The translations under genes and the position numbers were made by a program. Positions 125 through 46,417 of a stretch of DNA of 64,000 nucleotides are shown piece after piece. The notes under the pieces were generated by a model, which did not search any database, was not told where the DNA came from, and saw only the letters and a program-made list of their open reading frames with translations. The DNA lies in contig OZ020516.1 of NCBI GenBank assembly GCA_963971425.1, forward strand, positions 19,847,332-19,911,331, in the 5' to 3' direction. This DNA comes from Bryoerythrophyllum caledonicum. Lineage: Eukaryota > Streptophyta > Bryopsida > Pottiales > Pottiaceae. The first letter of the stretch is position 1; each line of letters opens with the position of its first letter.

Positions 125-2876
125 AAGAGGGGGATTTTCAAGTTTTGTTTACATACTAGGCTCAAGGTCAAGGGTTGAAGATTGATACGGTTGAATCGGA
201 TCGTGTTGATGGAGAACTAAGGAGCTCCGTGTTTTCTGGTGAGGGACGTTTGGGAGTTAGTCGCAGATCTAGAGTAGAGGGCAACAAGGGGTGCTGGGCT
301 TGTTGGAAACCCCACCTTTACTCCAGATCTAGAAGTGTATGAGCTTGGGAGGGACGTGAAGTGTTGGAAGAGGGGTTATGCTAGACAGATCTACCCGTGC
401 AATCCTTCTGGATGTGAGAGTCTGCTTTGTTGCAAGATCTTGTTGCAAGTCATCTGTAGAGCTGGAACTTTAAGTGTTGGGCAATTCGGTCTTAACCTCA
501 CCCAGATCGGAAGAGCAAGTGGTAGATCTGACAGCGTTGAAGGATACACGTACATAGCTCATACACAAACTTCCAAGGCAGCCCAGATCCAGACACATCA
601 ACCTAACAAAGCTGGAGCAAGAAGATCAACACGAGCTACTATCAGAGCCTACACCGCCTCCCCTTGAGCTACGCACCTCCCTCAACCCTCTCTCTTATTA
701 TTGCATAGTTTTTTTCTTGCTTTTTGTTGGTTTTTTCCATGCTGCCACTAGATACCCCACGATAAGCACACAGTTTCAATTAGGTTTCACCACTAGACCT
801 GATTCACAGAACTCTAACAACCCCCCTAGTCCTAATAGCTTCAAATCTAATCAATATCACCAACAAAAAAATTGCAAATATTTCACGAATTGTAAAAGTT
901 GTGCACAGGTCAGACAGAAACAAGCTCCGAGGCAACCAGGACTACACACGAACTGCAACAGGGGATGCGCAAGAATTGGAACAGGCAACACAGCAGACCA
1001 GGATCAGAAAAAAGAACACCAAGGCTGGAAGCAAACACGAACTGCAACAGTAAGTACACAAGCAAACGACTCGAACCAGCAAGACCAGCCCCAAGTCTCG
1101 GCACATCACACAACACAAGGGCGACGAAACTCGTATAACACACAAAGAAAATCGACACCACAGGTTCCCCTACCCTACCCTCCCTTAATTCTTCCCTCCT
1201 ATATTGACCGAAGTGAATGTGGGTTAGCTGCAACAGGTAGTACAAATGAAGATGACCAAGAACCGCAAATCCAGCACCAAACTTTGAGACAACACACAGC
1301 ACAAGGGCGACCAAAATCACGCGACACACGAAGATCCATACTACAGGTTCCCTTCCCATACCCTCCACTAACTCTTTCCTCTTACATCGATCACAGTAAA
1401 TGTGTGTTAGCAGCAATAGGGAATACGCAGGAACATGACCAAGAACCGCCAACCCAACACCTAGACCTGAGACAACATACAGCACAAGAGCGACCAAAAC
1501 CACGCGCCACACGAAGAAGATCCATACCACAGGTCCCCCTCCTCTACCCTCCATTCACTCTTCTCTCTTACACCATCTGCAGTGAATGTGTGTCAGCAGC
1601 AATTCAAAGACTACCAAGCAGGAAGCCACAACGATCACACGAGAGGAGGGCGAAGGAAGTTATAACGCCCACACAGAACCAGCGACCACCTCGAACCACA
1701 AACAGGTTACGTCCTTCCAACTTCAGTACACATTCACTTCATGATTATCCTAACACCCTCTCTTGGTATACTCACTATCTGTACAAGCTAAACAAAAAAT
1801 ATATCTACGTACTAACCCTAAAAAATCTCACACAATATACGAAAAGCAGTTGTATACAAGCTAAAACCTATAGTAAACAACGCCCTGTTAGATCTGGTCT
1901 TGCGTATACATTGCAGAAGTATTGTCTATCTTCTCACAGATCTGAAGAAATCGTCCCGAAACCTGCATCAAGATTACCACCCTGCAGACCAGATCAACTA
2001 CATCAGCAACATGCAACTTCCACAATAACTAACGACTACAGATCCAAAGCAACATACTCACCAGAGATCGTTAAAAGGTACGTCGCAAGACCCTCTCCTC
2101 TCCATGCAGATCAGGTAGAAGAAAACCAGCATCAAGGTACAGATCATCCCAACTTCACGCTACCCGAAACAAAGACATCAACAGCAGTAGAAGGCCTGTC
2201 ACAAAAAAGAAGAAAACGCGGCAGCAGAAGAGAAAGACCTGGAGCTACACTACTGAAGCGTGGAACCGGGAACGAAGAACTCAACAGTCATACACCCAGT
2301 ACATCCCCGAACACCTACGACCCAACATATACACGAACTTTGCAAGATACTGAAGGACGAGCACAAGTACAACAACAGATACACATCACAAGACGCACAA
2401 CAAGTGAAGACACACGCAAGTGCAGCAAGAAGGGACACAAGGCGAAATACAGCCAAAGCACTGGAGACGTACAAGAGCGCAGCAAGAAGAGACCCCAGGT
2501 AAGACACAGCCCACGCGTCGAAAGACGTACAACGCAAGAACATAACGCAGGGCTGAACAAGAATACCCGAGCACAAGAGAGGCAGTCCGCCTGCAATCTA
2601 GAAGCCCGCTTCCAACGAACACCTGGTACTGCACAGCGACCCGACGCACAGCACCAGGGACCTACCAATCCCCTCCAGCGACCTACTCAACCCCCCCAGC
2701 GACTTTCTGAATCCCCCCAGCGACCCACTAAAGCCCTCCAGCGACCTGCTACAACCTCCCAGCAACCCTGTAAGCTTCAACAACCCTCCAGCGACCCTCT
2801 CAAGGTAAGTAATTCTACCCTTCCTCTGACTAACCAGTGCACATTAGGAGCTGTAGTAAATTGGGGCGGGGCAGAT
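125..2876 (+). other. 5' leader of copy A, T-poor and open in one frame
   Basis: From 717 the frame stays open into ORF1 (720 codons before M at 2877). The predicted peptide is Q/R/P/T-rich with no recognisable domain. The strand is A/C-rich and poor in T, so stop codons are rare by composition; I do not claim a long N-terminal protein. Internal near-repeats begin around 1150, 1325 and 1525 (unit starting CCACAGGTTCCCCT-like). Good splice-donor consensus words occur at 2498 (CAGGTAAGA) and 2802 (AAGGTAAGT), and an acceptor-like GGGGCAG ends at 2874, two bases before the ORF1 ATG. A spliced leader is therefore possible. AGATCT words are frequent, as in other leaders of this window. Confidence 0.5.
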
Positions 2877-4547
2877 ATGGATACGCGAAGTGTGAAGAAA
2901 GCCCTCAACTATGAAGACCACATGGAGATTGAGTCCCCTAGCGAAAGCCTGAAGAGGCTTCAAGGAAAGCAAATGGAGAAACAACAACATGAAGAAGCAT
3001 CAGCCAGCAAGAAACAAAAGCCCATTCGGGAAGAGGAGAAGGGGAAAGAAGGTACGGCTCTCATCACTATCCCCGAAATTAGTTGCTTCAAATTTTGGCT
3101 CGGTTTCCATGTGATGGAGGAGCTAGCACTGGAGGAGGGATTAGATGAACTCCTCAATGAGGAAACAATTGAAGACATGGTGACCAGAGGCCTTAAGGAA
3201 AGCGAAGCTCAAGAAGTCAAAAACGCAAGGACAGCCTTCCCACGCATTCCACAAATTCACTATCCACAGTCGCGGGGGGCAGGAGGCCTAGGAGGACAAC
3301 ACTATAATCTTACCCAAGTGCCCACCAACATCCCCGTGGACGAAGGTACGGGCTTGGCTCTTGACTTTCAAATTGCTATCCACTTTGAACTACCTACTAA
3401 TCCTATATTGCATGACGAAGTCAAGATGATGGTTACCAAGCGCCTCAAAGACATGGACATCCCTCTTGGTAAGAAGCTCATTGAACCTATTTCTATTCAT
3501 TGTCTAAGTATCAAACAAGGAGGAGGGAAGAAAGGTGTATGGTCTGGACTTATCAAATTGCATCTTACTAAACCCGAAATTGATGGTTTACTCCTCCTCA
3601 AGGGGATTAGACCCTTCATCCTCAAAATTGATGCAACTAACGTGGTGGGAAAGGTATGTAAAACCTATCATGGCATTGCTCATCATTCTAGCCTTTCAGT
3701 TAAAATACAAAGTCCCTCATTGCATAACATTACCGCTAACCACCTCTTCAAAGAGGTCCTTGAGTCTAGCTTCAAACGTGGGCATGATTTCGAAGTTACT
3801 AACGTGCAGAAGGCAAAAGGAGATAGATTTGCCTTCATTTTGACCACCACACCGCAACAAGCCAAGAAAATCCAAGAACTACAAGTAACCGCACGCCAAG
3901 AAATCATGGAAACCAAGAAGCCCCTTGGGGGAACTCACATTTCCAAGGAAATGAAGGCTAAGAAAGATGCCCTTACCCTCACTCTCACCCACCTTCCCAT
4001 ACTAATGAATGTTAATGAGACTACTAATGCTATCTCTAAGATTATAGGAGACTCTAACATTTGTTCCATTTGGTTTCACAAAGACAATGGTGTGTGCCAT
4101 AATGGAAGTGCAAATGTTGCATGTGCTAACCCAATTGTATATAGGATGTTTGTGGGGAAAACCATTCCCATAGATGGCCACTTTGTGGAGTTTGCCCCTC
4201 ATAGGAGGAGCATTGATGGAATCGAGCCTCCCACCCAAGCTCAACTCATAGAGTTTGGCTTTGAAGACATCAACAAAGCCATCATCAACACAGTGGAGAC
4301 CTTCAATCTTCACACCCCGTCTCAAGCCATCACCAAGAAGGACCTAGTGGAGGCATTTGAAGCAAACAACAAAATATTGCGACAAGAAGTCAATGAACAA
4401 GCGGAGGCAAAAGCTAAGGAGCTCCAAGAAATCAAAAACCAAATGTTGAAGATCCAAGAATGTGTTGGCACTACCTTTGCAATGTTGCAAAACATCACGG
4501 GGTCCAAACCATCCATATTGATTGAAGAAGACTCGTCAAAAATGTGA
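2877..4547 (+). CDS. ORF1 protein of LINE copy A
   Basis: About 556 residues from the chosen M (2877), within a frame open since 717. That ATG is chosen because similarity to the ORF1 of copies D and B begins near it. The N-terminus is charged (K/E-rich). The core begins with an ISCFKFWLGF block and contains GGQHYNLTQVP and DFQIAIHFELP, both kept in copy B. A later block (SIWFHKDNGVCHNGSANV, then EFAPHRRSIDG) is followed by a C-terminal heptad-like helix rich in E, K, Q and L that probably forms a coiled coil. There is no CCHC knuckle. By analogy with other LINE ORF1 proteins it should bind element RNA and multimerise, but its fold is not recognised. It appears intact in this copy. Confidence 0.7.
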   Translation: MDTRSVKKALNYEDHMEIESPSESLKRLQGKQMEKQQHEEASASKKQKPIREEEKGKEGTALITIPEISCFKFWLGFHVMEELALEEGLDELLNEETIEDMVTRGLKESEAQEVKNARTAFPRIPQIHYPQSRGAGGLGGQHYNLTQVPTNIPVDEGTGLALDFQIAIHFELPTNPILHDEVKMMVTKRLKDMDIPLGKKLIEPISIHCLSIKQGGGKKGVWSGLIKLHLTKPEIDGLLLLKGIRPFILKIDATNVVGKVCKTYHGIAHHSSLSVKIQSPSLHNITANHLFKEVLESSFKRGHDFEVTNVQKAKGDRFAFILTTTPQQAKKIQELQVTARQEIMETKKPLGGTHISKEMKAKKDALTLTLTHLPILMNVNETTNAISKIIGDSNICSIWFHKDNGVCHNGSANVACANPIVYRMFVGKTIPIDGHFVEFAPHRRSIDGIEPPTQAQLIEFGFEDINKAIINTVETFNLHTPSQAITKKDLVEAFEANNKILRQEVNEQAEAKAKELQEIKNQMLKIQECVGTTFAMLQNITGSKPSILIEEDSSKM

Positions 4548-5160: not shown

Positions 5161-6465
5161 CAAACAACAACTTATCAACCACCGAAAAAATCAATACACA
5201 AAATTGAAAAAATGATAATAATAATATACTCTTTCGCACACAAACTAAGTAAAAATTCCAAAAAGAAAAGTATCAAAACCAAAATAAAAAATAAAAGGAA
5301 TAAGAGAAAAGATGGAATTAAAATAAATAATACAAGGAAGAAGAAAATAAGTATCATAACTACATATAACAAAATAGGGAACAATGTAAATGAAAACGAT
5401 CATAAACTTATTGTAATAAAGATACATAAGGGTAGAAGGGATTCTAAACCCAAAAACCATCAAAAGACAAGGAATACTAAAATGGCTAAAAATAGGAAAA
5501 TCAAGGAGAGTAAAAAGAGATATAATAAATTAAATAGGAAGAAAATAGATATTTATAAAATTTCAAAGGTTTTAATTAGAGCAAGTAATATTAAAAATAA
5601 AATAAAAAAAATGGAGAGGATATGTAAGAAGAAAATAAAGGGTAAAGTAGAAAACCATTATCATAAGAAAAGTAATAATAAGAACATAACAATAAAAAGT
5701 AGTACTAAAAATAGAATATGCTCCCTAAGATATTCAAAAACAAGGGATGGAAAATTCACCAAATTAATAATGGGATTTAATTATAATAAGAATACAAATA
5801 TGAAGAACATAGCTATAAACAGCAGTAATAAAAATAGAATATGCTTCCTAAGAAAATCAAAAATAAAAGATGGGAAATGCACCAAATTAGTAATGGGAAT
5901 AAAAAATAATAAGAATACAAATAGGAAGAATATAGCTATAAACCGCAGTACTAAAAATAGAATATGCTTCCTAAGAAATTCAAGAATAAGGGATGAAAAA
6001 TACAGCAAAACAGTAATGCAAATCAAATATAATAAGAATACGAATAGGAAGACTATAGCTATAAACAGCAATACTAAAAATGGAATATGCTTCCTAAGAA
6101 ATTCAAAAATAAGGGATGGAAAATGCACCAAATTAGTAAAGGGAATAAAAAATAATATGAATAAAAATAGGAAGACTATAGCTATAAACAGCAGTACTAA
6201 AAATAGAATATGCTTCCTAAGAAATTCAAAAATAAGGGATGGAAAATGCACCAAATTAGTAAAGGGAATAAAAAGTAATATGAATAAAAATAGGAAGACT
6301 ATAGCTATAAACAGCAGTACTAAAAATAGAATATGCTTCCTAAGAAATTCAAAAATAAGGGATGGAAAATGCAACAAATTAGTAAAGGGAATAAAAAATA
6401 ATAAGAATAAAAATAGGAAGACTATAGCTACAAAAGCAGTACTAAAAATAGAATATGCTTCCTAA
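4942..6465 (+). CDS. Lys/Asn-rich inter-ORF frame of copy A with 41-residue repeats
   Basis: A 507-codon frame: first T-x dipeptides, then a K/N/I-rich basic stretch, then repeated 41-residue units with the core NRICFLRNSKIRDGKC. It overlaps the preceding frame by four bases (ATGA at 4942). The repeat length is a multiple of three, so the frame survives expansion; it is lost only where the last unit is one base short (122 instead of 123). No known domain is recognised. It could be a basic RNA-binding product, a remnant of the inter-ORF part, or chance openness in A-rich sequence. Confidence 0.35.
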   Translation: MIKDKYTITYTDTDINTDTYTETYTNTDKNTETNTSTSTDTNTSINTYTGKNTDVNTNTSKDMDTDIDISINTQTTTYQPPKKSIHKIEKMIIIIYSFAHKLSKNSKKKSIKTKIKNKRNKRKDGIKINNTRKKKISIITTYNKIGNNVNENDHKLIVIKIHKGRRDSKPKNHQKTRNTKMAKNRKIKESKKRYNKLNRKKIDIYKISKVLIRASNIKNKIKKMERICKKKIKGKVENHYHKKSNNKNITIKSSTKNRICSLRYSKTRDGKFTKLIMGFNYNKNTNMKNIAINSSNKNRICFLRKSKIKDGKCTKLVMGIKNNKNTNRKNIAINRSTKNRICFLRNSRIRDEKYSKTVMQIKYNKNTNRKTIAINSNTKNGICFLRNSKIRDGKCTKLVKGIKNNMNKNRKTIAINSSTKNRICFLRNSKIRDGKCTKLVKGIKSNMNKNRKTIAINSSTKNRICFLRNSKIRDGKCNKLVKGIKNNKNKNRKTIATKAVLKIEYAS

Positions 6466-6520
6466 GGAATTCAAAAACAAGGGATGGAAAATTAACCAAA
6501 CTTGTAATGAGAAACAAAAA
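5695..6520 (+). repeat. 123-bp tandem repeat, about seven units
   Basis: The word ATAGAATATG and its variants recur at 5711, 5834, 5957, 6080, 6203, 6326 and 6448. Spacings are 123, 123, 123, 123, 123 and 122. Later units (6080 on) are more alike than early ones, suggesting recent expansion at the right side. A faint eighth unit lies near 6571. Confidence 0.9.
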
Positions 6521-7610
6521 TCTCAGAGTAAAAATAAATAGAGAAGATAGTGATAATATAAGAGTGCAGTCTAAAAATAGAAGTTGGAATATAAAATACA
6601 TGGATAAATGGAAAGTAAATAGTAATAATAAAATTGTTATATATAAAAATGAGGAGAGTTTACGATTAAATAGTAGAAATTTGTTGAGAGTATGTAGAAA
6701 TATTAAAATAGGAAGGGGGATTTTTGTTTCGTTGGCCGGTAGGGCGCCGGAGGCGCCAAAAATAGACTTACTAAAAATAGAAATTCTTATAAAAGTAAGA
6801 ATATATACGAATCTGATTAAAATATATATCAATCTGTTTTTAGAAATCATAGTTTTAGACAAAATATGTTTAGACAGAAATCTTTTAGAAAACTCATTAT
6901 TTCAATATACGGGTACATATATTGATACGTATACTGATACCTATACTAATACATACACCGGTGAGTATACTTATAAATATACTGATACAAATACTGGTAC
7001 ATATTCTGATACACATACTGGTATGTGTATAAATACAAATACAAATACTTATACAAATGCAAATACCAATACAAATAGTGGTACGTGTACTCATACGAAT
7101 ACTAACACAAATACTAACAAAGATACTGATACAAATACCAAGACAAAAACCGTGACATACACTAATACAAACATGCAAAAGAATACTAATATAATACCAC
7201 ATAAAACTACATACACACACACAAAGACAGCCACACACCATCAACGAAACACATACATATACATACACACATACAAAGACAAACACATACAATCAAAAAA
7301 CCACAAATACCAAAGCCACATTCAAAAACAAAAAATTCTAAAACAAAACAAAGAACCCATCTACTACAAACTACTAATATTAATTGGAGGAGACATGGAG
7401 ACTAACCCAAGACCCATGCCGAACATATTAAAAAGACACCCCACTTTGCACAAAAAGAATGCCAAAACATATTTCATACCAAATACTAATACAAACACCA
7501 AAACAAACAATTGTACAAACCACAAAGTATATAATAACACCGCATATGAAAAAAAAAAAGGAGGACTTAAAAGCCACTTTAAAAACCAACATAAACCCAC
7601 ATACAAATAG
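6521..7610 (+). other. Inter-ORF frame of copy A carrying a second hexamer array and a degenerate 2A
   Basis: Part of an open frame (6507-7610). It starts with diverged repeat sequence, continues from about 6900 to 7200 with another T-x hexamer array, then A/C-rich sequence with a 2A-like motif near 7387. A short GC-richer block (GGCCGGTAGGGCGCCGG, about 6733) stands out from its AT-rich surroundings and may be a small foreign insertion. Confidence 0.4.
7363..7425 (+). other. Degenerate 2A-type motif, first copy
   Basis: Encodes YYKLLILIGGDMETNPRP followed by MPNILKRHPT, the same context as the intact motif about 520 bases downstream. The essential Gly of NPGP is Arg (AGA) here, so ribosome skipping is predicted to fail. 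This is a tandem duplication of the 2A plus the first codons of ORF2; the upstream copy has decayed. Confidence 0.75.
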
Positions 7611-10600
7611 TCTTAAACATAATAGTTACATATGCACACGGACAAAAACAACCAAGATAAAATACAACCAATCATACATACATCCATACACTACTAAAAC
7701 AAAAACAACCATAAAAAACACATGGACAAAAAATAAACTAAAGACGAAAACAACTACAACTATTATAAAAATAAATAAACCCACAACTCACACACAAAAT
7801 ACAAACATCCACCTACCCCCAAACCAACAAGTCATTAATAACACAACAAAGCCTTTAAAATACACCACTAAACATATATACCACAAACTTCTACTACTTC
7901 TAGGAGGAGACATTGAAACCAACCCGGGACCCATGCCCAATATACTAAAAAGACATCCTACATCACATAAAAAAAATGCCAAAATCTATTTTATACCTAA
8001 TACCATAAAACTCCAACCAGAATATGAACACATTGCAAAACCCTTTGCACCATTTCTAAAAAACACACATACATTACACCACATACAAAACACTTCCCAC
8101 CCAAACATTGCCCAATACATACAACAACAAAAAACGCATCCACCACCCCACATCTTATATGCACTAATAATCACTACTCATCCAAGCATAGATGAATGTA
8201 ACCAACTTCTAAATCCACAAAATTTAAACACAATTACATGGACTAATACACTCCTACAAACCTTACTAACCTTACAAAACCCACCAGAACGACACATTTA
8301 CACTCCACACCCCTATACTGAATTCCTAATAGACAACCAAAATATTATAAACCATGAGAACTCAATACATAAAAGACTATATGACTTCTTACATAGTCAA
8401 GACATACCACCCTCAAATGATATAATAAAACTAAAATTCCCTTACCTCCCTAACAACCTCATAAGCGAATCACTAAAATGTCTAGATCCTATATCAGAAT
8501 ACATCCACCCACCCCCACCTCTTTCCTACATCCCTCCCCAAAACCAAAATCAAAACATTAGACCAAACCAAGAAAATACATACATAATCACATGGAATGC
8601 CTCCTCACTAAACACTGCCCTTCCTAGCTTACAAACTCTAGTCGCAAACACAGACACACCACCGGCTCTTATAGTTATACAAGAAACAAAACTAACCGCC
8701 ACAAAATCTACAAAATATATACAAAATATATTTCAAGACTATAAACTCATCTTAACAATACACATGCACTTACAAGATGCATGCAACAAAGGAGACCATA
8801 CACACCGGGCCGCGGTGGCCTCCTTACATTAATACACAAAAAATATACATTCCCCGGCAACATCAACAAAATCCCTACCCCAATGCATATATCACCATAC
8901 ATTCAAATAATTAAAATCACTAATCACCCACTACAATCGTGGTTAATCTTTCACATGTATATGCCATCCCATCCCGAAGATACTAGATTTCTCTTAGATA
9001 TTCAAAACACTATTACAACCCATATTAATAATCATCCCAATCATACATACCTATTATATGGAGACTTCAATAGAGACATAGCGCTAATTGGCCGCCAAAA
9101 TGGGAACCATCACACCCCCCCTCAAAACATTGATTACCAATGGCGCCGCTTCACAGAAAACTTAAACTTCACTTACATCAATACCGATACACAATTCTCT
9201 AGACAAGGTGGCTACAATTATAGTGATTGGAGTCTAATAGATGGTTTCTATATAAATACAAACAACAACACACAATATACCTCCACAACAAACAAAGATA
9301 TTATTCTCAATTCGGACCACTCACCCGTACAACTGCACATTCCAAATAACACACCAATTAGTAGAATTCCTACAATCCCAAACAAAGACACTATACGCAT
9401 ACTCAACCCCATCCCAAAAACCAACATAGAAAAATTCAACACAAAATTCTTCGAAGAAAACTCCGTACAAATAGACTCCCTCATGAATACTCTTGAAAAC
9501 AATAGTCAATTAACACAAGCACAATGGCAAGAAGCATGCCACTCTCTAGACAAACTCATCAATAAAATCTCCGATACACTAGAACAAACTTGTAGAGCAC
9601 ACCCAATACCCCAAATGACAAACAGAACCTCTCAACAAGGCGGGTATCTACCCCGCAAACTTTCTAAAACTTGGAAACAACACTTAACCACATACCATAC
9701 CATACGTAAAACCATTAGAATTGTAAAAAACAACCCTCAATGGCGTAACCACCCCATACACAACGAACTACTAAATATACAACACATCCAAATCCCTACC
9801 CCGCCGCCTCCGGACCTTCCCCACGATACATGGATAAAAAATATCGCGATAATTGCAAAAAATGCCAACATACAAGCCCCGAAAATAATCACAAAATACA
9901 CAAAAGAAAACATTAAAAAAGCCATCTCAAAATACAGACAACTATACGAAATCAGCCCCAAAAAAATTAACAAAAAAGTCTTTAAAAACCTTGAATCCCC
10001 ACCAATGGATTGTATCAAAGATCAATATAATAATATTCTAACTAGCCCCGAAGACATTGCGAATGAAATATTTAACCAACAAACAAAAACCAATAGACCA
10101 ACAGTACTAACATGTAATTACCAGCCACAACATACAATAGAATGCACATGTGCAATACGCCAATACCCTTGGCACGACCTGGACGGATATACCCTTGACA
10201 AACGGGGCGAACCAGAAATTCCACTACATAAATACCTCAACATAGCCACATACGACACATGCCTCCAAAATCTTGGAAATAATAAAGCCCCAGGCCCAGA
10301 CCGCATACCAAACTCAATACTCAAAAACATGCCTCCAAGATTTCATAAACTATTATTCCTATTCTTTTCTCACTGCTATAAACAAAAACAAATACCAAAT
10401 TCATGGAAAACAAGTGCAACAATTCTACTATACAAAAAAGGCGATCCATCCATGCTACCCAATCATAGACCAATTGCACTAGCTAACTCAATATATAAGC
10501 TTTTTACCAGTACACTCACCCACATACTATCCTCGTACGGCGAAAAATTCAAAATCCTACATGATAGTCAAGAAGGATTTAGAGCGGAGAGAAGTACCGC

Positions 10601-13600
10601 ACGGCAAATACAAACTATAATAGCCGCATTAGAAGACGCCAAATTTACTAACCAAGATATATACATACTATACGTGGACTTCAAAAATGCCTTTGGCTCA
10701 ATTGATCATGCCAGACTTCTAGCAATAATGTCAGACCTTGGCTACCCAAAAGAGGCAACTGCACTTGTTGGAAACATCTATTCCCAATCATCTACTTGCT
10801 ATATCGGCGAACACTTTGGGAAAACAAAACCTATACCCATCCAAAGAGGAACTATACAAGGGGACACCCTCAGCCCATACCTATTTATTATATTTTTAGA
10901 ACCACTACTTAGATGGCTAGAAAGAGGCAATAATGGATATACTTTCGGCACATCACAAGTCACAATAAACTCTGCCGCATACGCAGATGACCTAGCCACC
11001 ATAACTAACAAAATCAAATCAATCCAAATACAACTCCATAAAATTGATAGATATTGTAAATGGGCTGGCATGGATGTGGGAGTTCCAAAATGTGCCGCTA
11101 CCGGATGCCCAAACAAATCTAAATTGAACCCTACCACTTTCAAAGCCCTAATGCAAACCTCCAACATCAACTACCGCAACCAACCAATCCCTATACTACA
11201 CCAAAACGAACCATACATATACCTAGGTACAAATCTTGTTCCCTCACTAAAATGGAAAATCCAAATCCACACTACAACCACAAAGCTCATCAAACAATGC
11301 AAAGAACTAACAACATGCCCAGCCACCATGAAACAAAAAATAAAAATGGTTGATACCGTACTACGCCCAGGTGTGGCATACAGTTTCTACGGTGTACCAT
11401 ACTCTATGCCAGCTATCAAAAAACTTGATAAAAAAATAATAGCCATACAAAAAACCATATGTGGATTACCAAAATGTATGTCAAATGCAATAACCCAACT
11501 ACCACATAATCTATTTGGACTTGAAGCTTTCTCCCTAAAAAACGCATACCTCCGATGTATAGGCGAACAACTGCAAAATGCTTTAAACGATAAAGGAAGA
11601 CTTGGGAAAATATATAATGGATTAACTCACTATGTCCTTGCCCAATATGGTGGCGCTGAAAACATACCGAGAATTAAAAAAAGTGATTGCATAAGATCAC
11701 CAATAACACGAACATTCTTCTTATTAAAACATATAGCTAAAGCCCACCTTAAAAGTACGCTCCCGAATTTCCTCACTAATCCTACAACACTAGAAATACT
11801 ATGGCGCCAAGAAACATTAAATCATAACACACTCAATGCCCAACTCTCCCAAAAGCTTCTACAAAAACTCCTCTCAAAAAATATTTTTGAACTAAACCAA
11901 ATTACCTTACCTAACGGTACACACATCATGAACAATGAGGACTTCAAAACCTACCACTTCACCCCATCTAAACTAATAAAGAGTGCCCTAAGTGTTGCTA
12001 AACAACTATTTTGCCACATAACATGCCCCACTATATGTCATATTCCTTGCAACATACACCCATACTCTCATACACTTAAAGATCCATTCATCACCCTCAA
12101 CAATAACATCATCCCAAGAAATATTCCCACACCAACCAATCCCCCTAACCCTCCACATACATACCACCCCCGCCCCCCAACATACATCCCCAAAAACCCT
12201 ACCACATATCCCATTAATAATATCATAAACCATAAACATATCCAACACACAGATACAAATAACATACAAAATACCTACACAAAATATCTATGCCAATGGC
12301 AACACAATGATAATACATACAATAAATGGCTCCCCCAAAGAGACCTTTTTCCACGGCATGACACCAATACCTCCACACATAACACTGAAAAATTAAAACA
12401 ATACTACCAAAAGATCCAAAACAAAATATACTCAGATATCATCCTTGCCCACTATCCACAAGAACAATCCTCAGACTCAAGGTCCGTAACGCCACCCATA
12501 ATTATCCCACTCTTAAACATCTACACAACAGAATGCAACCCCGAAAATGATATCCTTACATCCTCAAACACAATTCAAATAGATAACAATCAAGCACATC
12601 TATACGAAGAAAACGGCCGACATTTACACACCATACCCATTACCCGGCTCCAATGGTTATGGAACCAATATCATACAAAATTACAATCCCCTACAAACAT
12701 TGAACCAACAACCCAACCCTTTGAAACCGAACTAATATGGCTTTACCAAAGATATAAATATCGAATACCAAAAACTGACCCCCTCAAAAATGCGCAATAC
12801 ACAATACCCACCCCCATTTTAGACTCACTAATATCATCCTTTAACATCGAACACTCATACTTTTCCTCTCCGATTACATGTCCTACCAAACTAAATAAAT
12901 TCTACTCACCGTACGAAAGAGACAAAATATTTGGATCCCTAGGCAAGGCCTTTGAACACAAATGGATCGGAAATGGAATAGCTCACCCCCACAACGAGAA
13001 AGACATAGAACAAGCCATACATTGGGCTAGACTTGCCACCAAACACGATCCAAATAACACAAAAACAATCATCGTCACACCGAACAACAATTGGTACCAA
13101 AACAACAACCAACATTCAAACCCATTCCCAGATTCCCACATCATTGCATTATTCGAACCAGACACAATACCATACGAAGAACCTAATATCCCACCCGAGC
13201 TAAAAAAACCCCGAATAGAGCCATCTACATTACAAATACTATGCGTCCATCATCAAAATCAAAACCTGGGCTCCCTAGAACAACTTGCGGAACTTACCTC
13301 CATAACAAACAATCTAAACATACAACGACCATACACAAAACCGGCCCCACCAACACCCATACAAACCCCCGTAAACAAAAGTAAAAAATGGTCAAAATTA
13401 AACTATGACAACAACACATTAAACTACTCCGTCATACCTCCCCCTCTCCCAGACTACCCAACTCATACCACACCAAAATTTAACCCCGCATATAGTTATT
13501 ACACCGACGGCTCCTTTAAACCACCGGAACAAATTAGCCCGGGCTCTGGCGAAGAGAAAAAGCTGGCTATGGCATATACAATTCTACCAAAGAAATTAAA

Positions 13601-14957
13601 CTAGCCAAAAGACTCCATGGACTACAAAATATCCTGAGAGCAGAACTCATGGCCATTCACAAAACACTACAAATCATCACAACAAAATACAAAAATGAAC
13701 CTGCACATATATTCACCGATTGTATAAATGCACTTTACCTACTAAACACTCAAATAACACACCCAACCCTTCACAACAGTCACCCCGACCAAACCATACT
13801 AACATCAATGGTACAAATGTTACAAAAACGTACACAAATCACAACCCTTCACAAAGTCAGAGCCCATGCCAACATTGATGGCAACGAACAAGCAGACAAA
13901 CTTGCAAAAGAAGGCCGAGAAAAAACACACAAAAACGCCAAAGACCCTCACGAACATGCTCATGCCACCCCATACTACTTTCAAAAAGAAGATTGGCCTT
14001 CCAATGAAGATACCTCCGACAAAGGCCCAGTTAGATTTTTGGGCAAATATCTCAAAAAACAAGACCTCTACAACAACCTGGATACAATCTCAGAAAATAT
14101 TCCTAACATAGAAAAATGGACTAACAATAACGACATAGACAATGAACTTTCTACAAACTTTTGGAAAAATCCCATCATCTCAGACTCACAAATAACGTGC
14201 CTCATCAAATTCCGTACTGGTCAGTACATGGGAAACGCTCGCAAACAACTCTTTTTTGGAATAGAAAGATTCCCATCCATAACATGCCCCATATGCCCCT
14301 CAACGGACCCCGACACATGGCTTCATGTGCTACTCAAATGCCAAAACCACCACATTCACTCTCTAATCATCAAAAGACATAATGAAGCGGTATGGGAAAT
14401 TTGAAACCTAATCACCTCCTACAAAAAATCGAGATGTTTCATACTTATGAACGCCGGCACTTTTAATAGCAATCCACAAGAAAACACGGTCCCCCCATGA
14501 CTACTTCCATGCTCATGTATGACCCAAAGATGTCATTGCAACGCTAGGCTCAAACCGGACATTCTTTGTGTCAAAGGTTTACCATACAACGACCCACCAC
14601 CCGAGAACATCAACCAAGACTACACCATTCAATTCATCGAATTTACATATTGCAACGATAGATTCTCCCCGAAACAATACAAAACAAAATAGATAAATAC
14701 CAACCCCTCATAGACGACATCATTGCCCTCGGCTGGAATGTGGACCCCCTTATTGTTATCACATCCGGCGCTCGTGCCACCACCTTTATCCCATCTATGA
14801 AAACTCTCGAAGATACCTTCAAGATACCCATTGATACAATTAAAACTACCTTTAAAAATATCAACACCATCGCTATTCAACATGCCATGTCTATTTCACT
14901 GCATAAACGTAAAATCGAAAACAACCAAGTCCTCCGTGATAGACAAGACCCCCCTTA
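7459..14957 (+). pseudogene. ORF2 polyprotein of copy A: 2A, APE, RT, RNase H, CCHC, PD-(D/E)XK-like (frameshifted)
   Basis: The frame opens at 7459 and the 2A lies at 7888. After about 210 residues of unknown N-terminal domain comes an APE-type endonuclease (TWNASSL, QETKLT, GDFNRD, DWSLIDGF, NSDHSP; about 8590-9330). The reverse transcriptase follows (NNKAPGPDRIP near 10280, LYVDFKNAFGSIDHA near 10670, QGDTLSPYLF, YADD at 10980-10991). An RNase H (YYTDGS near 13497) precedes the CCHC motif (from 14285) and a C-terminal KPDIL / IEFT / KIDKY module. Compared with copies B and C, one T is lost near 8757, one T near 13547 and one G near 14672. Stops TGA lie at 14402 and 14498. The copy is therefore inactive, but the ancestral protein was one frame of about 2,350 residues after the 2A. 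The family is known to nick DNA and reverse-transcribe its own RNA at the nick. Confidence 0.85.
7888..7932 (+). other. 2A ribosome-skipping motif at the start of ORF2, copy A
   Basis: The codons read LLLLLGGDIETNPGP and are followed by M-P-N-I-L-K. This matches the 2A consensus D-(V/I)-E-x-N-P-G-P with the usual hydrophobic Leu run upstream. In known 2A peptides the ribosome fails to make the Gly-Pro bond, releasing the upstream product and continuing with Pro. Here that would separate a T/K/N-rich leader peptide from the ORF2 protein. 2A sequences are known in some non-LTR retrotransposons (trypanosome L1Tc, sea-urchin elements). The same motif is kept in copy B. Confidence 0.88.
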
Positions 14958-15205
14958 GGAACTTCGCCACTTTGTCTCTTCCTGATTGGCTGCCTGTTTG
15001 GTTTTGCTTTTTGTTGTTTAGTTAGTTTGGTCGTGGTTGGTCGTTGTTGGTTGGTTTCTGGCTACTCGTTACATAGTGTCTACCCTCGAAAGGGGGAAGT
15101 AGTTCCAGTTCGCTAATTCCTTGTCCGGTGGGCATGGTCTTAGCAATGGAACGAACAGACACTTTATTCACGCCGGTTCCCTTCGGGAACCGGCGTTCTT
15201 CTTCT
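14958..15205 (+). other. 3' UTR of copy A
   Basis: The last about 150 bases (from TTACATAGTGTCTACCCTCGA near 15070) are shared with copies B (about 45762), C (about 22338) and E (about 51560). They end in the hairpin and a short TTC run. This shared end is probably what the element's reverse transcriptase recognises. Confidence 0.75.
15171..15195 (+). other. Perfect 3'-terminal RNA hairpin of copy A
   Basis: CGCCGGTTCCC, loop TTC, then GGGAACCGGCG: an 11-bp perfect stem immediately before the TTC tail. In copy C (22439-22463) the stem has a few mismatches; in copies B and E it is more decayed. Conserved 3' stem-loops are template-recognition signals in several LINE clades. Confidence 0.85.
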
Positions 15206-15216
15206 TCTTGGTATTC
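15206..15216. repeat. Target-site duplication of LINE copy A, right copy
   Basis: TCTTGGTATTC, identical to 66-76. Confidence 0.6.
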
Positions 15217-15955: not shown

Positions 15956-17420
15956 TCACATTTTTGACGAGTCTTCTTCAATTGAGGTGTGAGGTTTGGA
16001 CCCTGTGATGTTTTGCAACATTGCAAAGGTGGTACCAACACATTCTTGGATCTTCAACATTTGGTCCTTGATTTCTTGGAGTTCTTTGGCTTTTGCTTCC
16101 GCTTGTTCTTTGACTTCTTGCCTCAAAATCTTGTTATTTGCTTCGAATGCCTCTGCTAGGTCCTTCTTGGTGATTGCTTGGGATGGGTTGTGAAGTTTGA
16201 AGGTCTCCACCGTATTAATGATGGCTTTGTTGATGTCTTCAAAGCCAAACTCTATGAATTGGGCTTGGGTGGGAGGCTCAATTCCATCTATGCTCCTTCT
16301 ATGAGGAGCAAACTCCACGAAGTGGCCACCTATGGGAATGGTTTTCTCCGTGAATGCTCTATACACGATTGGGTTAGCACACACCACATTTGCACTTCCA
16401 TTATGGCAAACTCCATTGTCTTTGTGAAACCAAATAGAGCAAACATTGGAGTTTCTCACAATTGTATGAATAGCATTAGTGGTCTCAATAACATTCATAA
16501 GTATAGGGAGGTGGGAGAGTGTTAGGGTGAGAGCGTCTTTCTTAGCTTTTATTTCTTTGGTGATGCGGGTTCCTCCAAGGGGCTTCTTTGTTTGCATGAC
16601 TTCTTGACGTGCGGTTACTTGTAGCTCTTGGATTTTCTTGTAGCTCTTGGACTTCTTGACGTGCGGGTACTTGTAGCTCTTGGATTTTCTTGAAGGGTCT
16701 AATCCCTTTGAGGAGGAGTAAGCCATCAATCTCCGGTTTAGCACGGTGTAGTTTGATTAGTCCTAACCAAACACCTTTTTTCCCTCCTCCTTGTTTAATG
16801 CTTAAGCAATGAATTGAAATGGGTTCAATGAGCTTCTTACCAAGAGGGATGTCCATGTCTTTGAGGCGGTTAGTAACCATCTCTTTGACTTCATCATGCA
16901 ACATGGGATTAGTGGGTAGTTCAAAATGGATAGCTACTTGGAAATCTAAAGCTAAATCCGTACCTTCATCTACAGGAATGTTGGTTGGTACTTGTGTGAG
17001 GTTGTAGTGTTGCCCTCCTAGGCCACCTGCCTCTCTCGAGTGTGGATAGAGAATCTGTGGGATGTGTGGGAAGGCCATTTGAGCTTGCTTGACTTCTCGG
17101 GCTTCATTATCTTTGAGCCTTCTCGTCACCATGTCATCGGTTGTTTCTTCGTAAAGAAGCTCATCTAATCCCTCTTCCACAGCTAGGTCTTCCATCACTT
17201 GGAAACCTAGCCAAAATTTGAAGCAACTAATGTCAGGGGTGGTGATGAGTGCCATACCTTTTTTTCCCATGTCATCTTGGGCGTTTCTGCTCTTCTTGCT
17301 GCTCCCTGGTTCTTCTTCGTTTTGTCTGGAGCCTTTCTCTTTTGGAGCAGTGACTTTTTGTACAATCAACTCGTCAACTTCCATCTCCTCATTGAACATG
17401 ATGCTCCTCCTACTACTCAT
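15956..17420 (-). pseudogene. ORF1 of copy D, deleted and frameshifted
   Basis: Frames 17420-16542 and 16744-15956 together carry the same ORF1 as copy A (ISCFKFWLGF, GGQHYNLTQVP, SIWFHKDNGVC, coiled-coil end). The part equivalent to about 3615-3855 of copy A is deleted (RPF joins directly to KKIQELQV). A short tandem duplication of the KKIQELQV-coding segment at the join shifts the frame. It is much closer to ORF1 of A than to ORF1 of B. Confidence 0.8.
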
Positions 17421-19900: not shown

Positions 19901-19980
19901 TTAACCCTTAAATGTCAAAAGGTGCCAATGGTGGCCACAATATTCTACATGTATGGTGTTGTATTTGAACATGATAAGGT

Positions 19981-19994
19981 TCATATATTGAAAT
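19981..19994. repeat. Target-site duplication of LINE copy C, left copy
   Basis: TCATATATTGAAAT, repeated exactly at 22472-22485; one more T may belong to it (15 bp). Confidence 0.85.
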
Positions 19995-20244
19995 ATAAAT
20001 ACCGAATACCAAAAACTGACCCCCTAAAAAATGCGCAATACACAATACCCACTCCCATCTTAGACTCATTAATCACATCCTTCAACATTGAATAAGCATA
20101 CTTTTCTCCCCGGTCACATGCTCTACCAAACTAAAAAAATTCTACTCACCCTACGAAAGAGATAAAATATTCGGATCCCTAGGAAAGGCCTTTGACTATA
20201 AATGGATCGGTAAAGGTATAACTCACCCCCACAACGAGAAAGAT

Positions 20245-22200
20245 ATGGAACAAGTAATACATTGGGCTCGACTTGCCGCCAAACACGATCCAAAAAACAC
20301 AAATACAATAATCATCACACCGAACAACAATTGGTATCAAAACAACAACCAACATTTAAACCCATTTTCAGATTCCCATATCATTGCAGTATTTGAGGCA
20401 GACACAATACCATACGAAGAACCTACTATCCCACCCGAACTAAAAAAACCCCGAATCGAGCCATCAACATTACAAATACTATGCGTCCATCATCAACCTC
20501 AAACCTTAGGTTCCCTAGAACAACTTGCCGAACTTACCACCATAACAAACAATTTAAACATACACCGAATATACACAAAATTGGCCCCACCAACACCCAT
20601 ACAAACCCCCGTAAATAAAAGTAAAAAACGGTTAAAACTAAACTATGTCAACAACACATTAAACTACTCCCTCACACCTCCCCCTCTCCCTGACTACTCA
20701 ACTCACACCACACCAAAATTTAACCCCACACACAGTTATTACACCGATGGCTCCTTTAAACCACCCGAACAAATTAGCCCGGGATCTTGGCGCAGAGAAA
20801 AAGCTGGCTATGGCATATATAATTCTACCAAGGAAATTAAACTAGCCAAAAGACTCCATGGACTACAAAATATCCTTAGAGCAGAACTCATGGCCATTCA
20901 CAAAACACTACAAATCATCACAACAAAATACAACAATGAACCCGCACATATATTCACCGACTGTATAAATGCACTTTACCTACTAAACACTCAAATAACA
21001 CACCCTACCCTTCACAATAGCCACCCCGACCAAACAATACTAACATCAATGGTACAAATGTTACAAAACCGTACACAAATCACAACCCTTCACAAAGTAA
21101 GAGCCCATGCCAACATTGATGGCAACGAACAAGCAGACAAACTTGCAAAAGAAGGCCGAGAAAAAACACACAAAAATGCCAAAGACCCGCACGAACATGC
21201 CCATGCCACCCCATACTACTTTCAAAAAGAAGATTGGCCTTCCAAAGAAGATACCCCCGACAAAGGCCCAATTAGATTTTTGGGCAAATATCTCAAAAAA
21301 CAAGACCTCTACAACAACCTCGACACAATCTCAGAAAATATTCCTAACATAGAAAAATGGACTAACAATAACGACATAGACAATGAACTTTCTACAAACT
21401 TTTGGAAAAATCCCATCATTTCAGACTCACAAATAACATGCCTCATAAAATTCCGTACTGGTCAGTATATGGGAAACGCTCGCAAACAACTCTTCTTTGG
21501 AATAGAAAGATTCCCATCCATAACATGCCCCATATGCCCCTCAACGGACCCCGACACATGGCTCCATGTTCTACTCAAATGCCAAAACCACCACATACAC
21601 TCTCTAATTGTTAAAAGACATAATAAAGCGGTATGGGAAGTCCGCAAACTAATCACCTCCTACAATAACTCGAGATGTTTCATACTAATGAACGCCGGCA
21701 CTTTTAATAACAATCCACAAGAAAATACGGTCCCCCCTTGGCTACTCCCATGCTCATGTATGACCCAAAGATGTCATTGCAACGCTAGGCTCAAACCGGA
21801 CATCCTTTGTGTTAAAGGTCTACCATATAATGACCCACCACCCGATAACATCGACCTAGAATACACCATTCAATTCATTGAGTTCACATATTGCAATGAT
21901 AGATTTTCCCCGGAAACAATCCAAAATAAAATAGATAAATACCAACCCCTTATTGACGACATCACCGCCCTCAGATGGAATGTCGACCCCCTTATTGTAA
22001 TCACATCCGGCGCTCGTGCCACCACCTTTATCCCTTCTATGAAATCTCTTGAAGATACCTTCAAGATACCCATTGAAACAATTAAAACCTCCTTTAAAAA
22101 CATTAACACCATTGCTACTCAATATGCCATGTCCATTCTCCTACATAAACGCAATATCGAAAACAATCAAGCCCTCCCCGATACACAAGACCCCCCTTAA
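20245..22200 (+). CDS. ORF2 C-terminal fragment of copy C: RNase H, CCHC, PD-(D/E)XK-like
   Basis: 651 codons open without interruption; upstream (19995-20244) the homologous frame is broken by a TAA near 20093, so M1 is only the first in-frame ATG. RNase H has the DEDD set: D168 (YTDGS), E214 (RAELMAI), D239 (FTDCINA) and D298 (NEQADKLA), with His near 288. A zinc motif C428-x2-C431-x9-H441-x4-C446 follows. Then comes a restriction-like module: P518-D519, E546-x-T548 and K562-x2-K565-Y566, with GARA further on. CCHC followed by PD...E-x-T...K-x2-KY is the layout of the R2/Dualen endonuclease (established for those families; assignment here is by motif). Truncated, so not functional alone. 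Confidence 0.85.
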   Translation: MEQVIHWARLAAKHDPKNTNTIIITPNNNWYQNNNQHLNPFSDSHIIAVFEADTIPYEEPTIPPELKKPRIEPSTLQILCVHHQPQTLGSLEQLAELTTITNNLNIHRIYTKLAPPTPIQTPVNKSKKRLKLNYVNNTLNYSLTPPPLPDYSTHTTPKFNPTHSYYTDGSFKPPEQISPGSWRREKAGYGIYNSTKEIKLAKRLHGLQNILRAELMAIHKTLQIITTKYNNEPAHIFTDCINALYLLNTQITHPTLHNSHPDQTILTSMVQMLQNRTQITTLHKVRAHANIDGNEQADKLAKEGREKTHKNAKDPHEHAHATPYYFQKEDWPSKEDTPDKGPIRFLGKYLKKQDLYNNLDTISENIPNIEKWTNNNDIDNELSTNFWKNPIISDSQITCLIKFRTGQYMGNARKQLFFGIERFPSITCPICPSTDPDTWLHVLLKCQNHHIHSLIVKRHNKAVWEVRKLITSYNNSRCFILMNAGTFNNNPQENTVPPWLLPCSCMTQRCHCNARLKPDILCVKGLPYNDPPPDNIDLEYTIQFIEFTYCNDRFSPETIQNKIDKYQPLIDDITALRWNVDPLIVITSGARATTFIPSMKSLEDTFKIPIETIKTSFKNINTIATQYAMSILLHKRNIENNQALPDTQDPP

Positions 22201-22471
22201 ATTTTTCCCCCGCCTTGATTTATCATGACTAGTTGGTTTTGAGGTTTCTTGATGAATTGCTTGATTTGTGGTTGGTTCGTTGCCTTGTTGATTAGTTAGT
22301 GGCTCGTGGGTTGGTTTGTGGTTCCTTGGCTACTTGTTACATAGTGTCTACCCTCGAGAGAGGGAAGTAGTTCCTGTTTACTTATTCCTTGTCCTGTGGG
22401 CATGGTCTTAGTAGTAGAACGAACAAACACTTTATTCACGCCGGTCCCCTTCGGAAACCGGCGTTCTTCTT
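22201..22471 (+). other. 3' UTR and hairpin of copy C
   Basis: Shares TTACATAGTGTCTACCCTCG and the hairpin region (22439-22463) with copy A. Ends in GTTCTTCT directly before the target duplication. Confidence 0.8.
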
Positions 22472-22485
22472 TCATATATTGAAAT
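22472..22485. repeat. Target-site duplication of LINE copy C, right copy
   Basis: TCATATATTGAAAT, identical to 19981-19994. Confidence 0.85.
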
Positions 22486-31499: not shown

Positions 31500-31955
31500 T
31501 ATACAAAGACAATGGGAGAATAGATAATAACTACTACCAAAACTTTAACCCACACTCATGCCCATTTCCAGATTCTCACATCATTGCGGTATACAAGCCA
31601 AACTCAATACCATATGAATAATCCACTATCCTACCCAAATTAAAAAAACAAACCTAGCCTCAAGCCATCCACCATACAAATACTATGCATACACCATCAA
31701 TATAAAAAATATCGGCACCATGGAACAACTTGCCACACTTGTCTCCATAACAAATATCCTAAACATATGCCGTTAATATACAAAAATAGCCGCACCTAGA
31801 CCTTCCCAAACCACGATGAATCGCAACAAAAAATGGTTCCAACTTAAATATGCAAACACAACACAAATCCACCTCACTACACCAACCCCCTCCCCACATA
31901 TCATGACCGTATCCCCTTAAAATTTGAACTTGCACACACTTACTATATAAGGTAG
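31500..31955 (+). pseudogene. ORF2 remnant of old LINE copy E, first segment
   Basis: Matches copy A from about 13085 to 13500 (for example CCATTTCCAGATTCTCACATC; CAACTTGCC...CTT with ACAAAT following) with many substitutions and stops. It ends just before the RNase H YYTDGS region; the downstream continuation is found at 46335. Confidence 0.7.
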
Positions 31956-36399: not shown

Positions 36400-38024
36400 A
36401 TGGAGGTAGAGAGTATATCAGAAACTTCCAAGAGGTCCACAAAAGCAAAGAAGGACAGTCCATCCATTGGAGAAGCCCCAACCCCCACGAAGAAAGCCAA
36501 AGGTAACTCCACACCCCCCCTTCAAGTCTCTATTCCAGACTTCTCCTCCTTTCGTTTTTGGCTAGGTTTCTCCACCATGGAGAAATTAGCAATTGATGAG
36601 AGACAAGAGCCCTTGTTTAGTGGAGAAAGCGTTATGGACATGGTTACTCAAAGAATGCCCAAGGAAGAAGCAGAGGAGGCTATTGGTGCCAACGTGGCGT
36701 ACCTAAGAGTCCCACAACTCTTATACTCTCCTATACGGAGTGACAACATCAAGGGACAACATTACAATTTGACACAGGTACCTTTTGACATCCCCACCTC
36801 CCCTGAGACTGGTCTCTCCTTTGATTTTCAAATTGCAATACATTTTGAACTACCACAACACCCTTTATATCATGAGGATGTAAGGAAGCTCACCATTGCT
36901 AGACTAGAATACATGGAGATACCCCTTGGCAAGAGATTGATAGACCCAGTTGCAATCCTATGTAAGGGAGTCAAAAAACATGGTAAAAGCATATGGTCAG
37001 GAATTATCAAGCTCCACGTCCTCAGGCCAAAGGTGGATGCTATTGCATTACTCAGGGGCACGAGATTTTTCATCTTACACTTAGACCCATTAGGACCAGC
37101 CTCCAGGGGGAAGGTATGCAAGACTTTTCACACAGTAGCTAGGAAGAACCTCTCCGTAAAAATCAAGAGTGACAATCTTAAGGGGGTGAGTGCACACTCC
37201 CTCTTTCAAGATATAGTTACCAATGGTTTTTCAAGGAAGCTAGAGTTTGAGGTTACAGACGTACAGAAAAACCCAAGCGACTCCCATGCCTTTATCGTGG
37301 CGACGTGGCCTCTACTCCACAACAGGCCAAGAAGTTTGAAGTTCATAGCATCACCACACACTAGGAGATACTGTCAGCAAAAGCTTCAAGCTCTGACACC
37401 CTATCAACTACCAATAGAGCAAAGGACGCCCTCACGGTCACACTCTCTCACCTCCCCATATTAACTAGCGTGGCAGAAACCACGGAAGCCATACAGAAAG
37501 TATTTGAGGAGAAAATGGTGTCACTATGGTTCCATAAGCAGGAAGGGGGGAAACATAACGGAGGAGCCAACGTACAACTTCTAAACCCCATCACTTATAG
37601 GCAATTCTTGAACAAAACCTTCATCATAGGAAGGCACCAAGTTGAAATCTCACCCCATCGTCGTAGTCTGAATGGCATGGACCCCCCATCCCCCACCATG
37701 GTGGAGCAATGGGGCTTTAATGACATTAACAAGGCCCTTGTGAACACGGTGGCCTCCATCCAAGCCACCCCCGCCCCCTCTAGCATCACGAGATCAAAGA
37801 TGGCCTCCATTATGGAAGCAGGAAACCAGAGATTAAGAGAGGAGCTCACCACCTTACGTGAAGACATCATCAGAGAAACTAGAGCCTACACCGACAACAA
37901 CACTCATGAACTCCAAGACAAGCTTGCCAACGTAGAAAGCTTGATGACCTCCACACTACTTGCAATGCAAGACATCACTAGATCCAAAGCCCCAGCACTT
38001 GGAGATTCGTCAAACGTGGATTGA
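36400..38024 (+). pseudogene. ORF1 of copy B, divergent and frameshifted
   Basis: Starts MEVESISETSKRSTKAKK. The blocks FRFWLGFSTMEKLAID, GQHYNLTQVPFDIPTS, DFQIAIHFELPQHPLY and GKVCKTFHTVA line up with ORF1 of copy A, but overall identity looks only around half, by eye, against near-identity of ORF2. The frame shifts near 37305 (the alternative frame continues STPQQAKKFEVHS) and again before 37450, then runs 37470-38024. It ends with MEAGNQRLREELTTLRED, a likely coiled coil, and ITRSKAPALGDSS, matching the C-terminus of A. It represents a distinct ORF1 subtype. Confidence 0.8.
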
Positions 38025-39151
38025 CCACAAAATATAGACAAACCTCTCAAAGCCATGGAGATCCATGGATGAGTAACGATGATTACCATATCTCAAATAG
38101 GATTACTTTAACTACACTACATCATCACTAGAGTATAGATGCACCTCCTACTCTCATAGTACACCTCGCCCATCCTCCCATCTCTTTTTGTTTTCTCCCC
38201 AATCTCCTAGTATACCTCCTACCCACACTAACGTACTCACTTCCACTCACCCCACACTACCACAATACTATAGTAGAGACCTCATATAGTATAGTAAATT
38301 TTGTTCACCTACCATCCTACATTTGTTATTATCTCAAGTTTATACTACCCTATTCACTTAGATACATATTGTCAAATATTTCTACTACTATACCAATATC
38401 TATCTACTCCCACACATATTGCACTACCTCATCCTATACTTTATTAAACATCTATTGCCTAAATACCTTGAATAGAATAGATATATTCCTCTCATCTCTA
38501 AAAATTGCTTATAGACACTTTACTAACTACTTATTTGATACAAACACATTTAGAAACGAACTAAGAGATACACATATTACTCACAATCTATGGATTAATG
38601 TACACCTCCACTGTTTAGTGTATTACAAAACAATCACGTACACGAATGTCTATTACAAAAACTCTTGGAACACACACTTCCTTCGGGAGAATACATACCA
38701 ACCACATAAACCACAGACCAATACAAAACAAACACATAGAATCTGGAAAGATATCTCTACACCAAACAAATACAATATAAACAAAAAATCATACCACTCC
38801 ACATTTACAAACAACATACAACCACTTACATCTCCTTTGCTACAAAAAATCCCCCTACAAACAAAAGCCAAAAAATATATATACACAATAACATACAAGA
38901 ACCCACCAATCCAAAAAACCACGCACACAAATACACCACAGACACATACAAAAATAAAGACAATAGCACCATAACCACAAAAACAAAAATAAATATAACT
39001 AATAACAAAAAATTCACTATCCACATACAAAACACATACACCCACCCCCCCCCCCCCAAACAAAAAAGAAGACAATAACACAATAAAACCCCCCAAAAAT
39101 ACACAAATAACAAACACTTTAAAATACAGCAATAAATACACTTATCACAAA
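38025..39151 (+). other. Inter-ORF region of copy B
   Basis: About 1.1 kb, A/C-rich, with no hexamer array and no 123-bp repeat, so unlike copy A. A frame at 38369-38974 (T/N/Y/K-rich) is in phase with the 2A and ORF2 but is cut by TAA at 38972 and further stops. A run of 13 or more C near 39045-39057 is likely unstable. If the stops are secondary, this frame encoded the peptide upstream of the 2A. Confidence 0.45.
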
Positions 39152-46334: not shown

Positions 46335-46417
46335 TATATATTAAACACACAAATAACACACCTTGACTTCCACAATAGCCATCCCGACCAAGCCATACTC
46401 ACATTTATGGTGCAAAT
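46335..46417 (+). pseudogene. ORF2 remnant of old LINE copy E, RNase H part
   Basis: Matches A around 13745-13825 (ACACAAATAACACACC...CCACAATAGCCATCCCGACCA). It continues, after the inserted element, at 48226. Confidence 0.65.

Follow-up and report, generated by a model that had tools for sequence, protein, structure and literature searches.

A 64,000-nucleotide window of the moss Bryoerythrophyllum caledonicum (contig OZ020516.1, positions 19,847,332 to 19,911,331) carries copies of a non-long-terminal-repeat (non-LTR) retrotransposon that is very probably of the Dualen/RandI type and that has a domain resembling the mRNA-cap methyltransferase PCIF1/CAPAM within its second open reading frame (ORF). 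By sequence or structure prediction the order of parts is ORF1, then ORF2 with a 2A motif, an apurinic-type endonuclease (APE), reverse transcriptase (RT), a chromodomain-like module, the PCIF1-type domain, RNase H, a CCHC knuckle and an R2-type endonuclease, then a folded 3′ untranslated region (UTR) and a (TTC)n tail (Table 1). A first-pass annotation, made from the letters alone, had proposed a Dualen/RandI-like lineage of long interspersed elements (LINEs) in a land plant, placed at 7888..14957 and encoded in one ORF2. The lineage assignment is supported by an RT clade shared with algal rows and by APE, an R2-type nuclease, RNase H and the TTC tail. All the motifs it named are present; however, the frame of copy A is broken and is not one intact ORF, the element extends further, with ORF1 upstream and a structured 3′ end reaching to about 15209, and the chromodomain-like and PCIF1-type domains had been missed.

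Class of the element and its nucleases

A protein search with the moss RT returned 144 matches, the best 120 of which were used for all counts. A quick tree of 107 rows, from which 18 of the 120 with fewer than 400 aligned RT-profile columns were excluded, placed the moss element in a 67-row clade (SH-aLRT 100) with rows from Parachlorella and Cymbomonas. In a second tree of 54 rows (50 hand-picked from the 107, plus P0061, P0064, P0070 and P0074 from the 18 excluded), a 36-row clade (100/96) holds the moss element and Pleodorina starrii, and the R2 chains 9nl2 and 9nl3 fall outside it, as do human L1 and the L1 found in this window. Forcing the moss-type rows to group with L1-type rows cost 55.8 log units (approximately unbiased (AU) test, p 0.011, with long branches in play), which rejects the placement within L1 that the first-pass annotation had named as speaking against its own proposal. 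Forcing them together with R2-type rows cost 44.5 log units (AU p 0.020 in a two-tree test, with long branches).

It is extremely improbable that the element is an ordinary plant L1 or RTE LINE whose C-terminal CCHC region has been mistaken for a nuclease. The window does hold a plant-L1-like LINE as well (RVT_1 at 56952-57668), and PMC3747384 tabulates L1 and RTE as flowering-plant LINE families, but both the RT tree and the fold stand against L1, and the L1 reading was discarded on these two grounds. That LINE spans 55890-59484 (RVT_1 E 3e-27) and is nearest to zf-RVT rows in the 107-row tree. Very improbable, too, is an R2-group element that gained an APE: a single-sequence search of the PDB gave R2 RTs 115.9 bits and L1 77.2, and the C terminus is R2-like, but the RT groups with algal rows that bear APE and the same modules, with the support given above, and its placement with R2-type rows was rejected. 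R2 is not known to carry an APE, RNase H or PCIF1-type domain. The moss element has the C-terminal CCHC/endonuclease fold in common with R2 (PDB 9nl2, 9nl3, 9dou, 8gh6), whereas its RT belongs to another clade. Just outside the clade, P0084 has a SET domain (E 3.5e-6) at its N terminus together with RT, an R2-type endonuclease and a weak APE match, and is without the PCIF1 module.

The catalytic motifs read in the first-pass annotation were recovered. The four strings given for the APE in Table 1 were read by eye as APE motifs; the APE precedes the RT and scores up to E 4e-13 among the relatives (P0029). The RT with its YADD box was recovered by the RVT_1 profile. RNase H (PF00075) was found at E 9.1e-7 in copy A, where the domain is split around 13.5-13.9 kb, and more strongly in copy B; as expected for Dualen/RandI, it lies between the RT and a C-terminal PD-(D/E)XK endonuclease with a CCHC knuckle. 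This C-terminal region has an R2-like fold, and in a 38-row alignment C105, C108, C123, H136 and D196 are invariant, with H118, P195 and E223 nearly so.

The Dualen/RandI elements of Chlamydomonas and its relatives were reportedly the subject of work by Kojima and Fujiwara in 2005. Such elements are described from these algae in the accessible text of PMC3636483 and PMC8226300 (citing Kojima and Fujiwara 2005), are also treated in parts of PMC4640811 and PMC3747384, and are placed in cryptophytes in a part of PMC12747079. Like them, the moss element has both APE and a PD-(D/E)XK nuclease, RNase H and a short 3′ repeat that is not poly(A), and its RT groups with volvocine, trebouxiophyte and prasinophyte rows. 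It differs in its moss-like host and in the 2A motif at the start of ORF2. Its PCIF1-type and chromodomain-like modules go unmentioned for Dualen in the accessible text of PMC3636483 and PMC8226300; the PCIF1-type module is present in the algal rows assembled here.

The PCIF1-type domain and the chromatin-reader slot

The moss domain has the predicted helical and methyltransferase fold of PCIF1, and a PCIF1-type module was found in 39 of the 39 clade rows of sufficient length; judging from these sequences, the clade that holds the moss element appears to carry it as a regular component. Profiles were needed to see it, since the PDB search with the single window sequence reached PCIF1 only at E 0.48. 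TPR matches in that search (E 0.2 and 0.37) were disregarded. The WD40 matches of profile A3 comprised many short stretches, none significant singly, and vanished once the leading part was omitted. The moss domain resembles the cap-specific adenosine N6-methyltransferase PCIF1/CAPAM (PDB 6irv, 6irx) in fold and in conserved columns of both the helical and the methyltransferase part; it differs in being embedded in a LINE ORF2 and in its catalytic NPPF, which is replaced by HPHN here and by NPEY or HPPF in some relatives. Our literature search, with most subscription papers outside it, found no description of a PCIF1-type module in a LINE, and the papers it retrieved on 2A make no mention of Dualen.

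According to the accessible part of PMC7927073, N6-methyladenosine enzymes bear [DNSH]PP[YFW], and in METTL16 an aromatic residue stacks on the acceptor adenine. The window sequence fits neither NPPF nor this pattern. Motif letters were counted over 40 aligned rows, comprising the window and the 39 of 51 module proteins that exceed 230 bits: 13 have NPEY, 3 have HPPF, one has SPPF and the remaining 23 have other letters, so that the strict pattern is present in 4/40 and the relaxed [DNSH]Px[YFW] in 17/40. P0001 has HPNN and P0002 HPHS; the alga Cymbomonas has NPEY. This degeneracy, which many other rows share with the moss-type lineage, would fit a dead relic that is passively carried and functionless, but we consider that quite unlikely. 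The dN/dS values for the PCIF1 region are 0.224 (A-C), 0.188 (A-B) and 0.242 (B-C), close to the 0.116-0.214 of the other regions, all of them without a significance test and raised by decay after insertion. The region is also 67% identical to P0001 and 55% identical to P0002, independent relatives, over about 264 residues, and no sufficiently long clade row is without it. Judged by these sequences, the domain is kept for some function despite its degenerate motif.

Between the RT and the PCIF1 region lies the chromodomain-like module. Pfam Chromo matches it at E 0.36 in the whole ORF and at E 0.0042 when the piece is scanned alone (17.4 bits, with a cut-off of 25.1). A five-row profile, A6, matched 23 PDB sequences up to E 5, five of them under E 0.01; going by their names, 21 belong to the chromodomain or chromobox proteins (two of these under the entry E3 SUMO ligase CBX4), and the remainder are one viral polyprotein and the best match (E 7e-4), which has no telling name. 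Foldseek with a 410-residue model gave no chromodomain among the 50 rows listed, and the module was judged from the profiles; the chromodomain call is weak. A PHD finger occupies this slot in P0052. At the N terminus, P0061 (Pleodorina) has a Josephin domain and P0027 a short Ulp1-like stretch.

The PCIF1-type domain would engage the element's own RNA, at its capped 5′ end or along its body. It may methylate in those relatives that have NPEY (Cymbomonas among them) or HPPF, and in the moss-type lineage (HPHN, HPNN, HPHS) it is probably more binder than catalyst. The chromodomain-like module would bias the landing site. Going further, we tentatively propose, as a possibility short of an even chance, a LINE clade ranging from green algae to mosses that would be built around a captured PCIF1/CAPAM cap-adenosine methyltransferase domain beside a swappable chromatin reader (chromodomain-like or PHD). 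In such a clade the domain would act on the capped 5′ end of the RNA, with methylation where NPEY or HPPF survives and no more than a grip on it in mosses; either way the element would mark or select its own transcript. The moss branch would have 2A instead of the N-terminal protease-like domains (Josephin, Ulp1) of some other members.

Several observations weigh against the overall reading of a Dualen/RandI-type LINE with this set of parts. The neighbours in the RT trees are Pleodorina, Parachlorella and Cymbomonas, with no row labelled Dualen or RandI. HPHN is without the second proline and the aromatic residue, which makes catalysis doubtful in the moss-type lineage, and of the 13 module-bearing relatives scanned, four (P0016, P0018, P0026 and P0032) do not reach the cut-off of PF12237. 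Pfam Chromo was not found in P0001, P0002, P0003, P0026 or P0027 and reached only E 0.13 in P0007. The APE region of copy A matches Exo_endo_phos_2 at E 4e-4, below the curated Pfam cut-off, and a Pfam scan of the relative P0066 gave no match at all. Finally, no in-frame ATG precedes the 2A motif of copy C, and between copies A and C the ORF1s share only about 40% identity against 91% for the ORF2 DNA, which means that the 5′ halves differ in their history.

The 2A motif and ORF1

The GGDIETNPGP of the first-pass annotation is present, with its core in copy A beginning at 7903 and not at 7888. No match to D[VIM]ExNPGP appeared when the window was shuffled by single bases 100 times and read in six frames. 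In copies A and C the motif is preceded by a leucine run and fits D[V/I]ExNPGP with its upstream context; in copy A it abuts the ATG of MPNILK. Among the best 120 of 144 RT matches a 2A-type motif was seen only in P0066, P0012 and P0113, with NPGP in other contexts in P0039, P0077 and P0109, and among the matches listed none was seen in the 16 clade rows that have 780 or more residues ahead of the RT. At the position matching the moss 2A, P0066 has CGDIEPNPGP (N-terminal region 58% identical) and P0012 has SGDIQPNPGP, with Q replacing E (33% identical); P0066 and P0001, whose contigs have the same length (13377), are probably the same element. P0113, an L1-like element with zf-RVT, has the 2A-like AGDIELNPGP near its N terminus, and thus N-terminal 2A motifs occur in unrelated LINEs.

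If translation entered upstream, the 2A would free a short leader and leave the ORF2 protein with a free N terminus; without upstream entry, ORF2 would start at the ATG right behind it. We think it somewhat unlikely that the 2A is untranslated, with ORF2 beginning at that ATG and the motif being an RNA-level or fossil feature. NPGP directly precedes an ATG in A, C and P0066, as it would in that case, and the missing upstream ATG of copy C fits as well. On the other side, all three differences between A and C in the ten core codons are synonymous, and the peptide is kept in P0066 and altered (GDIQPNPGP) in P0012 despite the N-terminal divergence. L1Tc and sea-urchin LINEs with 2A are covered in the accessible part of PMC4981915, citing Heras 2006 and Odon 2013. 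The moss motif shares D[V/I]ExNPGP with them and stands behind a hydrophobic stretch near the ORF2 start; as far as the accessible text goes, those elements are APE-type and from trypanosomes and animals, whereas the moss element is dual-nuclease and from a plant.

The ORF1 proteins of copies A and C are 42% and 38% identical over two stretches (E 2e-83 and 5e-38). A third ORF1-like gene at 15956-17420 (minus strand), just beyond the 3′ end of copy A, is 81-85% identical in DNA to the ORF1 of copy A and has no ORF2 of its own. In a Pfam scan, neither the ORF1-related ORFs of copy C nor those of the minus-strand copy matched a family above cut-off. The contrast between ORF1 and ORF2 identity suggests that 5′ halves were exchanged between copies. 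Both the solitary minus-strand gene and the low A-C identity could also be taken to mean that the ORF1-like genes are a separate transposon situated upstream by chance; we hold this to be unlikely, as each of the two long ORF2 copies is immediately preceded by a related ORF1 in the same orientation. In copy A, the stretch 5692-6536 between the two ORFs holds a 123-bp unit repeated in tandem about 6.9 times, with shorter-unit arrays nearby.

Copies, 3′ ends and integration

The copies were delimited by self-comparison of the window. The reading frame of copy A shifts near 8.8, 13.6 and 14.7 kb and contains stop codons near 14.40 and 14.50 kb. That of copy C is interrupted at several points, with about 575 bp missing past the RT core, and in copy B the stretch 20092-22197 is open. 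An exact 15-bp target-site duplication, TTCATATATTGAAAT, flanks copy B (19980-19994 and 22471-22485), and an unoccupied site related to its target is found at 51976-52207. The 5′ truncation of copy B together with this duplication fits target-primed reverse transcription. Short diverged pieces of the family (69-83% identity) lie at 31526-31865, 46339-46426 and 48218-48297. A viral-contig scan with ORF2 gave four pattern stretches and no relatives.

Folding z-scores of the 3′ UTRs were -5.75 (A), -2.70 (B), -3.30 (C) and -3.82 (D), and shuffles folding as well numbered 3/200 for B and 0/200 for each of A, C and D. The own best fold of D is unlike that of A, B and C. In the consensus 4 of 42 pairs changed on both sides with pairing kept, a count without a significance test, and an Rfam scan at gathering thresholds gave no family. 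TTC repeats end all four copies (short in B), in keeping with the short non-poly(A) 3′ repeats of Dualen/RandI; all eight RandI families tabulated in the accessible part of PMC3747384 have non-A repeats, (ATT)n or (CTATTT)n. In the cycle that we propose, the RT and the CCHC/endonuclease region would recognise the 3′ RNA structure, and a target nicked by the APE (or the second nuclease) would prime first-strand synthesis at the TTC tail. The remaining nuclease may cut the second strand, and RNase H would clear the RNA.

Table 1. Coordinates of the element's copies and parts in the 64,000-nucleotide window
Feature	Position	Strand	Remarks
Copy A	7845-15209	+	self-comparison
Copy B	19993-22471 (19980-22485 including target-site duplications)	+	90% identity, 5′-truncated
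Copy C	39109-45903	+	91% identical to A, internal deletion
Copy D	50438-51698	+	about 71% identical, 3′ part alone
ORF1, copy A	2601-4544	+	648-codon open frame; homologous stretches 2922-3893, 4011-4520
ORF1, copy C	36400-38024	+	two adjacent ORFs, 36400-37464 and 37470-38024
Degenerate 2A core duplicate	7386-7415	+	GGDMETNPRP
2A core, copy A	7903-7932	+	GGDIETNPGP, ATG directly after
2A core, copy C	39170-39199	+	three synonymous differences from A within ten codons
APE endonuclease	8584-9350 (approximate limits)	+	TWNASSLN, VIQETKL, GDFNRD, SDHSP; spans frame change near 8.8 kb
Reverse transcriptase	10158-11480	+	AAYADDLA; RVT_1 10443-11228, E 4.6e-26
Chromodomain-like module	12186-12425	+	between RT and PCIF1 region; Pfam Chromo weak, profile match
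PCIF1/CAPAM-type methyltransferase domain	12561-13310	+	NPPF position reads HPHN (12984-12995)
RNase H, copy B	20734-21180	+	PF00075 E 3.6e-13
CCHC knuckle and restriction-like endonuclease, copy A	about 14285-14955	+	alignment
CCHC knuckle and restriction-like endonuclease, copy B	21526-22164	+	KPD, FIEFT, K-x2-KY
CCHC knuckle and restriction-like endonuclease, copy C	about 44980-45651	+	alignment
Structured 3′ UTR, copy A	15060-15209	+	strong hairpin at end, then (TTC)n tail
Structured 3′ UTR, copy B	22335-22471	+	folding
Structured 3′ UTR, copy C	45755-45903	+	folding
Structured 3′ UTR, copy D	51545-51698	+	folding

Near the end of the window, the product of 62128-62562 matches DUF7748 (E 1.5e-17) and has three relatives in the protein collection, one of them from the moss Ceratodon purpureus and 65% identical over 67% of the query; this single protein makes a moss-like land plant the likely host.

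With the moss element, the range of dual-endonuclease LINEs comes to include a moss-like land plant, here with a 2A motif, and the element points to a LINE lineage that retains a PCIF1-type mRNA-cap methyltransferase fold as what appears to be standing machinery. Its defined domains would make it possible to test by what means LINE proteins recognise the RNA that encodes them, for what reason two nucleases persist and whether such elements modify their own caps.
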